Program-made: the position numbers and the translations under genes | The notes under the pieces: model-generated | Told to the model about the DNA's origin: nothing | The model's database searches: none | What the model saw: only the letters and a program-made list of their open reading frames with translations | Assembly: GCA_013619125.1 (NCBI GenBank) | Contig: JABXKS010000084.1 | Span: 62,001 to 126,000, forward strand | Direction of reading: 5' to 3' | DNA: 64,000 bases | Source: Clostridiales bacterium | Lineage (GTDB): Bacteria > Bacillota > Clostridia > Tissierellales > GPF-1 | Shown: positions 12,542 through 59,304 of the stretch, one piece after another | How the letters are laid out: every line of letters starts with the position of its first letter | How positions within the stretch are numbered: the first letter of the stretch is position 1

Positions 12542-12640
12542 TTGTATTTCTCCTTTGTCCCCCTAGTATAGAAGAAGATCTTGAATATCACAAGACTTTT
12601 AACCTTGGCGGGTATATACCTTATAGAAAGGAGAATTTCC

Positions 12641-13759
12641 ATGAAAGCTAATCGAATTATTCCTTGGGTATTAATAGTCTCTGCGATACTCCTAATCTTC
12701 CTTTGGCTCCGATCCTGGGGAACACCGAAATCCATTTCTGATGCAGAAACACCAGTAGCTCCGCCAATGGAAGTCATTCCACCTCCGAGCGGTTCTACTT
12801 TCGATCGATACTACCAAGCCATAGAAAGTGGCGGTGTCTCGCAAGATGGGATTCCGTCTATCGATGCGCCTGATTTTGTTTCAATAAAAGACGCCCAAAT
12901 ATTTATGCAACCCGACGACTGGATCATGATCGCAAGAACACCAAAAGGGATTTTCATCGCCCCTCAGGAGGTGCTTGTCTGGCATGAAATTATCAACATG
13001 CCATGGAACGACACGGAAAACTTTGTATTTTCTTATTGCCCGCTTACTGCAACTGCAATGGGCTTCAAAGGAGAAAATTTGAACTTTGGCACTTCTGGAA
13101 ACCTGTTGAACAGCAATTTGGTTATGTACGATCGATTGAGCAACCAGTACTGGCCGCAAATGCTGGGCAGAAGCATAACCGGGTCGCCACCAGGTTTGGA
13201 ATTGAATCCTCATCCCATCCATTGGAGTACCTGGCGAGACGTGACTGCTTTGAATATCACGGGTAATGTTCTGACAACCAACACCGGTTTTTTGCGAGAA
13301 TACGGCAATGATCCCTACGGTTCCCACGAATTGCGCAGTTCCTATTATTTTAGCGATGCAATCCTCTATCCATTGATGAATGAAACCGATGAATGGTTTT
13401 CGAAAAAGATCATAACAGGATTATTGCTTGGGGAGGATCATTTCGTCACAGATCCTATCGTTCTTCAGAAAGTCGGGTCATACACGTTTCAATGGCAAGA
13501 AGAAACCTACTTGATTTTTTGGGATGATGGATTGCGCACAAGCCGCATTCTCACCATCACACCATACCCAGATCTAACAATTGAAAGCGAAACACGAACC
13601 CTATTTAGCCCAACCGCCTCTTTAACCTGGGACTACGACGGATGGCCGATCGACCACGAAACGCACTTGCAAGCACCTTTCTATTACGACGCATTTTGGT
13701 TTTCGTGGTATGCCTACTTCCCAGACAGCGTCATTCTCGAACTGGAGAATGAATCATGA
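12641..13759 (+). CDS. DUF3179 protein, membrane-anchored, Cys form
   Basis: The start at 12641 follows AAAGGAG and gives 372 residues. Residues 7-24 are a signal anchor. The DUF3179 core begins near residue 70 and includes YCPLTATAMGF with Cys133, then the GTSGNLLNSNLVMYDR and YWPQMLGRSITG segments that mark the family. Most relatives I recall have CPxC at this place; here the second Cys is Thr. Its function is unknown. The gene overlaps the next one by four bases (ATGA), so the two are translationally coupled. A second, cytosolic DUF3179 gene with UGA at the matching Cys is at 58155-59018. Confidence 0.85.
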   Translation: MKANRIIPWVLIVSAILLIFLWLRSWGTPKSISDAETPVAPPMEVIPPPSGSTFDRYYQAIESGGVSQDGIPSIDAPDFVSIKDAQIFMQPDDWIMIARTPKGIFIAPQEVLVWHEIINMPWNDTENFVFSYCPLTATAMGFKGENLNFGTSGNLLNSNLVMYDRLSNQYWPQMLGRSITGSPPGLELNPHPIHWSTWRDVTALNITGNVLTTNTGFLREYGNDPYGSHELRSSYYFSDAILYPLMNETDEWFSKKIITGLLLGEDHFVTDPIVLQKVGSYTFQWQEETYLIFWDDGLRTSRILTITPYPDLTIESETRTLFSPTASLTWDYDGWPIDHETHLQAPFYYDAFWFSWYAYFPDSVILELENES

Positions 13760-36450: not shown

Positions 36451-36539
36451 CTAACAACATACTCTTCGTCAAAGTTTTGACGATTCCACAACTACGAATC
36501 ATTCGATCGAATAGTCGAAAACGAATAACACGGTTGTGT

Positions 36540-36647
36540 TTCTTCTTCCATCCAGACTGTACTGTCGGTTCTGGAATTACACCAGATCAGCTTGCGCTCG
36601 CGGACTATCACCGCCGGTCGGGAATTTCACCCTGCCCTGAAGAATAT
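36540..36647 (-). ncRNA. FMN riboswitch (RFN element)
   Basis: On the minus strand the conserved blocks appear in order: TTCAGGGCAGGGTGAAATTC, CCGACCGGCGGTGAT, AGTCCGCGAGC, then GGTGTAATTCCAGAACCGAC, AGTACAGTCTGGATGG and AAGAAGA closing P1. All family-specific joining bases I can recall are present. FMN binding would favour the downstream terminator and shut off ribD-ribE-ribBA-ribH. Confidence 0.97.
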
Positions 36648-36664
36648 TCAATTGATTTAAATCT

Positions 36665-56736: not shown

Positions 56737-57411
56737 TCACTCCTTCGGCTTACTTGCCACCAAAACAGCATTCGTTGTGGTCCTGTAAATCACCCGCACC
56801 GGATCGAATCCAACGCTTTTTAAAAGCATGACCTGCCTCTCAACCGTAAAGGGAATATCCAAATGAAATTTCCCAATTTCCGCTCCCTCGTAATTCTCAA
56901 CCTGCTCATAGTAACGTGCCAAGGCCGCTACTTCTGCATCAGATGAAACCATATAATCTCCTTCGATATATATGCCGCCCAGCTTCACAGCGTCAAATAT
57001 CTTTTGATAGATCTTTCTCTTCTCACTGATAAAGAAATGATGCATGGTCATGGAAGAGAGAATTACCTCATACTCTGATTTGCCCAATGGATCTGTCACA
57101 TAAGAGCCTCTCGCCCATTGAATCCGCTCCCCAAAGGTTCGGTGAGCCTTGGCGCCTTCTTGTATCATCTCATCAGATATATCCATCCCCTTGATCAAAG
57201 CTTGAGGCGCCGCCGCCAAGAGGTATGGAAATTCCAATCCAGTCCCGCAACCCAAATCAAGGAGTTGAAACTTATCGCCTCTCCCCTCGACGGGTTTTGC
57301 CAAAGCCTGGTAGTACTTGTCAAAATCCTGAATGTTTTCTCGCATATGCTGATCATAACCTTTGGCACGTGCATCAAAGAATGATGCCATTTCCTCAATT
57401 TTCTCTTTCAC
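56737..57411 (-). CDS. Class I SAM-dependent methyltransferase
   Basis: The 224-residue protein starts with GTG at 57411 with GAGCGAGGATAA upstream; an ATG seven codons later has a poorer site. Motif I is LLDLGCGTGLEFPYLLAA, GMDISDEMIQEGA is the acidic strand, and VILSSMTMHHFFISEKRKIY and FDAVKLGGIYIEGDYM follow. It resembles tRNA/small-molecule methyltransferases with a leading FFDARAKGYDQHM. It is directly adjacent to the upstream gene (stop at 57412) and is last in the operon with the candidate selenoprotein. Confidence 0.82.
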   Translation of the reverse strand: MKEKIEEMASFFDARAKGYDQHMRENIQDFDKYYQALAKPVEGRGDKFQLLDLGCGTGLEFPYLLAAAPQALIKGMDISDEMIQEGAKAHRTFGERIQWARGSYVTDPLGKSEYEVILSSMTMHHFFISEKRKIYQKIFDAVKLGGIYIEGDYMVSSDAEVAALARYYEQVENYEGAEIGKFHLDIPFTVERQVMLLKSVGFDPVRVIYRTTTNAVLVASKPKE

Positions 57412-58158
57412 TTATCCTCGCTCCCTCAATTCAGCCATCCAGTCCATCGCTTCCTGAAATTTGATCTCAAGTTCTTCCGGCGATCCAATAAAAAAGAAGG
57501 GCTCTAATCGTGCGATGACGGTTTCCGGTAAATCATAATACAGGTATCGACTTTGAAAATTATATCGAAATGGGCTGTAGCGAATCCGAATAAGTTCCAC
57601 CAAGGCTTTTTGGATAAATCCCTGAAAGAAGGCCATGGCTTCCATATGATTTCCGCGATGGATCTCCTTTTCCACTAGAATGCGGTACAGATCAACCTTC
57701 TGGATCAGTTCCTCCACTCGCACCTCCAGCTTTTCTTTCCATGCGTGAGCTTCAATAGGTGCTACCTGCGTAATCCCGTCCTTATCAAAGTGGACAGGAA
57801 TATCGCCATGGATTTCCCGTTCCAAGAACTTAGTTGGCGCATCGGGTGCTACAATCGCTACCTCAATCACATGATAGGGACTCATCCCTTCCAATCGATA
57901 TACCTTTTGCAAAACCCCAGGCCATCCCCCACTGGGTCCCAAGGAAGAATCGATAGGCGCAATCCCTTGCAGCGCTTTTTCGATCGCTGTAAACAAGAGA
58001 TCGGTAGCGCCCTCTTTCCCCTCGATGACAATATCCAAATCCGACCACTCGTCAATGCGATGGAAAGCAACAGATCCGCATTCCCACATGGCTCGCGCTT
58101 CTTTCATCGGTTCCAATTGCTCAGCAATTTTTTTTAGTATTTCATCTCGATTGATCAT
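57412..58158 (-). CDS. Nucleotidyltransferase-fold protein (aminoglycoside adenylyltransferase-like)
   Basis: The start at 58158 lies in the ATGA overlap with the DUF3179 stop and gives 248 residues. The N-terminal part has CGSVAFHRIDEWSDLDIVIEG, the GS...DxD nucleotidyltransferase motif with both metal Asp residues. The middle has LEVAIV-type strand and the C-terminal half is helical with a VELIRIRYSPFRYNFQSRYLYYDLP segment, as in minimal nucleotidyltransferases plus a substrate-binding domain. The substrate is unknown; resistance to an aminoglycoside is possible but not shown. Confidence 0.75.
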   Translation of the reverse strand: MINRDEILKKIAEQLEPMKEARAMWECGSVAFHRIDEWSDLDIVIEGKEGATDLLFTAIEKALQGIAPIDSSLGPSGGWPGVLQKVYRLEGMSPYHVIEVAIVAPDAPTKFLEREIHGDIPVHFDKDGITQVAPIEAHAWKEKLEVRVEELIQKVDLYRILVEKEIHRGNHMEAMAFFQGFIQKALVELIRIRYSPFRYNFQSRYLYYDLPETVIARLEPFFFIGSPEELEIKFQEAMDWMAELRERG

Positions 58159-59018
58159 GGCTCCTCCGAAAAAATTTCCGCCTGAGGAAATGTCGCAACA
58201 AACCCATACCATAGAGAATGCACCTGCAAGATCTCTTTCTCTTTTCCTTCCGATTGCACTTCCGCTACTGGGATCTTAGTTTCCGGATGAATCCGGATCA
58301 ATAGAGAAATTCCCTGCCAGGTTTCCTGAATGGCTCTTGATTCTAAGCTCCGCTCGGGATAAAACTTTGCTTCCTTCCCATGCCAAATGCCAAGTCCCAT
58401 TTCCAACGCGTCCAATCGCTGATCCGTACGTTTGAATTGACGTTGAAACATTGGCGGCAACCATTTATTTTGAATGGCCATTCGCATGACATGTGTCGTC
58501 CAATTTCGCCACCACGAAAGCTTAGAAATCGCAACCTGCGCGTTCGGATATTCTTTTTCCACCAGATCCGCGCGGGTATGCAAAAGAGGGCGCACTACCA
58601 ATTTTTCTCCAAGAAATTCTCCTCGTATACATTCGCCGGTAATATGATCCCAATAGGACTGGGTTTCAAGATCCGCAAGCAAAGACAAGCCCTGATACAA
58701 TCCATAAGCGGCAAAGGTTAGCTTTCGATCGCGCACAATGGGCGTCATCCAGACACCCGTGTTGCAGGCCGGTCAGAAGGACACCATCCAGGGCTTTTCC
58801 CCAATCATGCCTTGGGCAACATGATGATAGGTCATCTGCCGCGTTAAAAGCACCAGAGAAGAGTCGTTGATTTTCGCGTGCAAAACCGGTTCTTGGGCTT
58901 CCACCCATCCCTTTTCGATGGCTTCTGAAAGCAACAAATACCGGGTCACTTCAAATGGTTCAAAGGCAGGATGATCCTTTATATTTGCCATTGCCGGGTC
59001 AAACGTTTCCATTCCCAT
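58155..59018 (-). CDS. DUF3179 protein, candidate selenoprotein (in-frame UGA as Sec82)
   Basis: The start at 59018 follows AATAAGGAGGAAACTC. The frame runs to one UGA (58773-58775), then on in the same frame to 58155, giving 287 residues if UGA is read as selenocysteine. Around it the sequence is WMVSF-U-PACNTG, matching FSYC-PLTATA of the window's other DUF3179 protein (Cys133) and the CPxC of the family. After it come LTFAAYGLYQGLSLLADLETQSYWDHITGECIRG-like blocks of the same fold (cf. SNLVMYDR, YWPQMLGRSITG). A SECIS-like hairpin follows at once. There is no signal peptide, unlike the paralog. Overlaps: 20 bases with YciI, 4 with the nucleotidyltransferase. A plain nonsense mutation is the alternative. 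Confidence 0.8.
58740..58758 (-). promoter_or_regulatory. SECIS-like hairpin after the in-frame UGA
   Basis: On the minus strand GGGTGTC and GACGCCC form a 7-bp stem (one G-U) over a TGGAT loop with G at position two. The loop begins 21 bases after the UGA. A CAC/GTG pair with a 3-base bulge extends it. Known bacterial SECIS elements have a loop 16-37 bases after UGA with a G in the first two loop bases. Confidence 0.7.
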
Positions 59019-59304
59019 GAGTTTCCTCCTTATTCCATTCACTATTTAAAACCACAGACCATTCATAGATCTGAAACATATACTTTCCCGATGCAAATAG
59101 CGGATCGAGTCTGGCCCACTCTTTTGCTTCTTTTAAGGAATTGGCTTCAAAGACAACCATGCCACCGGTATCACCAACAAACCCACCAGCCATCATGGAC
59201 CTTTCTTCGGCAGACCGCTCCATAAAGCGCAGATGCGCTTGAAACTCCTTCTCCGTTAATTTTTCTTTCCCTGTCTTTTGGTCGAATCGTACAAATCGTG
59301 TCAT
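58999..59304 (-). CDS. YciI-like (YCII domain) protein
   Basis: This 101-residue protein starts at 59304 behind GGAGGACGAGG. It has the YCII pattern: EFQAHLRFMERSAEERSMMAGGFVGDTGGMVVFEANSLKEAKEWARLDPLFASGKYMFQIYEW, with the conserved His and Asp in the HLRF and RLDP positions that form the putative active site. Some relatives act as dehydrochlorinases or in small-molecule turnover; most are unknown. It is the first gene of the four-gene overlapping operon. Confidence 0.82.
   Translation of the reverse strand: MTRFVRFDQKTGKEKLTEKEFQAHLRFMERSAEERSMMAGGFVGDTGGMVVFEANSLKEAKEWARLDPLFASGKYMFQIYEWSVVLNSEWNKEETHGNGNV

Follow-up and report, generated by a model that had tools for sequence, protein, structure and literature searches.

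A short DUF3179 gene of a Clostridiales bacterium with an in-frame UGA very probably read as selenocysteine

The window, i.e. the whole stretch of DNA analysed here, comprises 64,000 nucleotides of contig JABXKS010000084.1 (positions 62,001 to 126,000; assembly GCA_013619125.1) of a Clostridiales bacterium. It carries two genes of the DUF3179 family, one of which is interrupted by an in-frame UGA and lies in a run of genes on the minus strand. The features required for the analysis are as follows (window coordinates):

58155..59018, minus strand: short-form DUF3179 gene, very probably selenocysteine (Sec)-containing; 288 codons, i.e. 287 residues and a stop
58773..58775, minus strand: in-frame UGA, very probably read as Sec; residue 82, motif U-P-A-C, in the column of the family's first Cys
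58740..58758, minus strand: candidate bacterial SECIS hairpin, GGGUGUC-UGGAU-GACGCCC; the loop starts 21 nt after the UGA
59025..59030, minus strand: ribosome-binding site AGGAGG, strong, ahead of the ATG, assigned from the sequence
58999..59304, minus strand: upstream overlapping gene with a YCII-related domain (PF03795, 37.3 bits)
57412..58158, minus strand: downstream nucleotidyltransferase-like gene (motif GSx..DxDIV, read by eye), its start overlapping the DUF3179 stop
56737..57411, minus strand: class-I SAM methyltransferase gene (PF13649 and related), the last of the run
12581..13759, plus strand: second DUF3179 gene, full-length, with an N-terminal membrane segment and the Cys form CPLT (PF11376, 206 bits)

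Translation of the minus strand from 59018 to 58155 confirmed a single frame broken only by the TGA at 58775-58773 (codon 82), as the initial annotation had stated; the terminal codon is also TGA. This terminal codon overlaps the next ATG as ATGA (58158-58155), and the same ATGA is found in both sister genomes, which places the true stop at 58155. When the internal TGA was read as U, residues 17-259 matched the PF11376 (DUF3179) profile with 98 bits against a cut-off of 27, and no NCBIfam model was found that names the protein. In alignments with homologues the UGA falls on the first Cys column of the CxxC motif (C-P-x-C in the family), so that the proposed replacement of a conserved Cys by Sec, giving UxxC, was borne out, as was the reported C followed by P-L-T in the same column of the second DUF3179 protein of the window. 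Cys or Sec occur only at residues 82, 85 and 130, and C130 is invariant in the short DUF3179 branch. With the N-terminus read by eye and the Pfam match starting at residue 17, no N-terminal signal or membrane segment was recognized in this protein, which agrees with the earlier suggestion of a cytosolic member; its sequence indicates that it is probably cytosolic. The genome contains only these two DUF3179 genes.

The YCII-related neighbour is common to both sister genomes, and the nucleotidyltransferase-like gene has no Pfam match. In sister genome G001 (L025, about 2350-2480) most of the nucleotidyltransferase gene is deleted and short pieces of its beginning and its end survive; the DUF3179 gene and its UGA are kept there despite this loss. 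Elsewhere in the window, an FMN riboswitch precedes riboflavin genes (36536-36648, minus strand, 118 bits).

Homologues were searched among 199 genomes of relatives, the window's own included. Matches to the UGA-containing protein were confined to the three genomes of the genus, the UGA is present in all three, and the proteins are 78-83% identical. For the codons behind the UGA, dN and dS were 0.08 and 1.11 between the window gene and its counterpart in sister genome G002, and 0.10 and 0.84 between G002 and G001; because dN is far below dS, these codons are very likely translated. The 11 codons directly after the UGA are identical in the window gene and G002 and show two synonymous differences from G001, while beyond them at least half of the codons differ from those of G002 and G001. 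The UGA thus stands at the Cys position of homologues and is kept between species, as is used for the recognition of selenoproteins. Relatives with TGC or TGT at this position and decay elsewhere in the gene had been named beforehand as evidence against such a reading; instead, the close relatives keep TGA and the remainder of the gene is free of decay.

The candidate SECIS hairpin consists of a 7 bp stem and the 5-nt loop UGGAU and folds in the window gene and in both sister genes. Its folding energy is -11.5 kcal/mol for the hairpin alone and -13.0 kcal/mol for 40 nt. It lies within the published limits of the bSECIS model (PMC13188914) on stem length and loop size, on G in the first two loop positions, and on spacing and energy. 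Within the open reading frames (ORFs) of the window, 0.7% of codons are followed by a 7-bp hairpin at the same spacing, and since a hairpin fitting the model with an energy of -7.5 kcal/mol or lower follows about 1.7%, a single hairpin is modest evidence.

Further UGA-containing DUF3179 genes were found outside the genus. A genome scan led to Marinithermofilum abyssi, which has three tandem DUF3179 genes, two with Cys and one with UGA; the tandem copies are 48-56% identical to one another. DUF3179 occurs in nine of the ten genomes of its family, Thermoactinomycetaceae, and within the order (42 genomes searched) the short branch is confined to those nine, with 20 near-full-length copies. Eight of these, in six genomes, carry TGA, always in the same column and as UxxC, and often adjoin Cys copies. 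Its presence in each of the three genomes of the genus, and in eight genes from a second family, shows that the UGA is not due to chance. Across the homologues, the column holds Cys in most, Ser in two and never Trp. The eight Thermoactinomycetaceae genes share a hairpin of the type GGRACYA-GUM-UGGUUCC at 22 nt, unlike the window's hairpin in sequence and at nearly the same place. Taken together, a hairpin (7-8 bp) follows the UGA in 11/11 UGA genes, compared with one of 6 bp or more in 2/19 Cys or Ser genes (Fisher p 1.4e-6, kinship ignored). The Cys genes, e.g. the window's second copy and the Marinithermofilum tandem copies, belong to the same family and have the motif at the same position as the UGA gene; they differ in that a Cys codon replaces the UGA, and 17 of the 19 non-UGA genes are devoid of the hairpin. 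The two exceptions are L061 of Marinithermofilum abyssi (minus strand, 1381-2220), with a SECIS-like hairpin (7 bp) 22 nt after the Cys codon, and a gene of G601 (L053:253-1053), with one of 6 bp at 21 nt; both genes seem either to have switched recently from Sec or to be ready for it. At G602:C32:73466-73734 (L099, L102), one more DUF3179 copy survives in broken form.

Among Thermoactinomycetaceae, selB is present in all six UGA genomes, and the three genomes devoid of selB have no UGA copy (p 0.033, hypergeometric sum, kinship ignored); G598 is selB-positive, yet has a Cys copy only. By parsimony the Sec state requires five changes on the tree, at least two of which are forced by well-supported branches.

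The genome of the window (3.4 Mb, 98% complete, 130 contigs) was searched for selA, selB, selC and selD, the absence of which would have spoken against Sec, and all four were found. selA (552 bits, over the cut-off) shares a small contig with selB. The latter is seen as two pieces because an assembly run of N lies between them; a broken selB was rejected, as selB of both sister genomes scores over the cut-off and contains no stop. The tRNA-Sec has the anticodon UCA (TCA in DNA). selD carries an in-frame TGA of its own (SG-U-G), followed by a bSECIS-like hairpin (L041; G000:C58:9-731), and probably encodes a Sec-containing SelD.

These computations converge on the reading of the UGA as Sec at residue 82, which we hold with high confidence. 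Through its hairpin, 21 nt after the UGA, the mRNA would recruit SelB with Sec-tRNA(UCA), and the Sec inserted as residue 82 would complete a U82-P-A-C85 pair in this protein, which is probably cytosolic. U82 and C85 may form a reversible selenenylsulphide, and C130 is perhaps a third redox residue. From the presence of U-x-x-C and its replacement by C-x-x-C in relatives, a selenol/thiol redox role can be proposed, and with modest confidence we regard the protein as a selenol/thiol oxidoreductase; the neighbouring genes do not indicate a substrate or partner, and no solved homologue suggests a reaction.

For the same pair a different function, compatible with Sec insertion, was considered, namely metal or metalloid binding by U-x-x-C, or peroxidase activity, in place of thiol-disulphide exchange. 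Published lists of Sec-containing proteins do include metal-handling families (PMC9312934; PMC13188914), and models of both DUF3179 types resemble Rieske domains, a scaffold for redox and metal chemistry. The window protein (pLDDT 89) and a full-length DUF3179 protein (L034, pLDDT 84) were modelled with AlphaFold2 and the models matched against PDB structures; the top matches of both were nearly all Rieske proteins. Residues 50-150 of the window protein matched Rieske domains with Z 7.2 and rmsd 2.4 over 91-93 residues, and the two halves of the full-length model (residues 20-160 and 185-303) reached Z values of up to 8.6 and 9.4; Foldseek E-values were weak (0.03-0.08 at best). However, the window protein, in which Cys and Sec are limited to residues 82, 85 and 130, has neither the C-x-H nor the C-x-x-H ligand pair, both of which are kept without exception in the aligned true Rieske proteins, and no metal gene is found among the neighbours. 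A metal-binding or peroxidase function therefore appears rather unlikely, though it deserves to be kept in mind.

The halves of the full-length protein represent an internal duplication (hhalign probability 98%, E 5e-14, 118 columns), and the C/U-x-x-C motif is restricted to the first half. In predicted models each DUF3179 half resembles Rieske ferredoxins (Z 7-9.4), which differ by their C-x-H...C-x-x-H cluster ligands; a DUF3179-Rieske profile comparison gave no sequence link, and sequence searches of the PDB with DUF3179 gave no relative. The link to Rieske proteins is accordingly a lead from predicted models. It is doubtful, but conceivable, that DUF3179 is a duplicated Rieske-like domain in which the [2Fe-2S] ligands were lost and a Cys/Sec-x-x-Cys redox pair arose in the first half, Sec and Cys having replaced each other several times in a single bacterial family.

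If the UGA were not read as Sec, it could be a true stop or a sequencing error, the gene being either a pseudogene or, with translation starting at the ATG of position 58748, the source of a 197-residue product only. TGA is indeed a usual stop, ending 10 of the 53 long ORFs of the window, and the 3′ ORF starts with an ATG. Against this, the UGA occupies the same codon in three species with conservation on both sides, which extends to codons 83-90, behind the UGA and ahead of the next ATG, and UGA genes of another family share the column. With the UGA kept in three genus genomes and purifying selection acting behind it, a pseudogene or sequencing error was rejected, and a true stop is very improbable. 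A general code change, or suppression independent of SECIS, could also have the UGA read as another amino acid, e.g. Trp, and the frame would stay open, as under any sense reading of TGA. The probability of this is negligible, given that TGA ordinarily acts as a stop in this genome, also at the end of the DUF3179 gene itself (a code change was rejected on the TGA-terminated window ORFs), that Trp never occurs in the column, and that tRNA-Sec(UCA) is present and the hairpin tracks the UGA state.

The Sec reading agrees with earlier listings of the family. The initial annotation had proposed a candidate new selenoprotein family, and this claim fails because DUF3179 is already contained in published lists of predicted selenoproteins. 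The DUF3179 selenoprotein of Zhang and Gladyshev belongs to the same Pfam family and has Sec at the same position, the first of the CxxC/T motif, as is seen in U-P-A-C of the window protein. The 2007 study by these authors reportedly concerned a deltaproteobacterial worm symbiont. Compared by published description only, the window-type genes differ in that they occur in Bacillota, are short, have no signal or membrane segment and show a reduced second half. Reviews of 2022 and 2026 list DUF3179 (PF11376) with the motif UxxC/T among predicted prokaryotic selenoproteins (PMC9312934 Table 1; PMC13188914 Table 1), and both credit Zhang and Gladyshev 2007; MBW1804167.1 and MDJ0986319.1 are listed as representatives. 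In a literature search of limited coverage no paper on Sec in Thermoactinomycetaceae and just three mentioning DUF3179 were found, and the short Bacillota branch may be undescribed. What seems to be new is this short branch, the repeated switching between Sec and Cys, and the Rieske-like structural lead.

In the genome of the window, UGA serves as both stop and Sec codon, and for this reason a gene finder blind to Sec cuts the DUF3179 protein to an ORF of 89 or 197 residues. The Rieske-like model provides this functionally uncharacterized domain with a structural hypothesis that can be tested; if true, a metal-cluster electron-transfer scaffold would have been turned into a selenothiol enzyme. 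The Thermoactinomycetaceae set represents a natural experiment on the exchange of Sec and Cys and on the origin or decay of SECIS hairpins.
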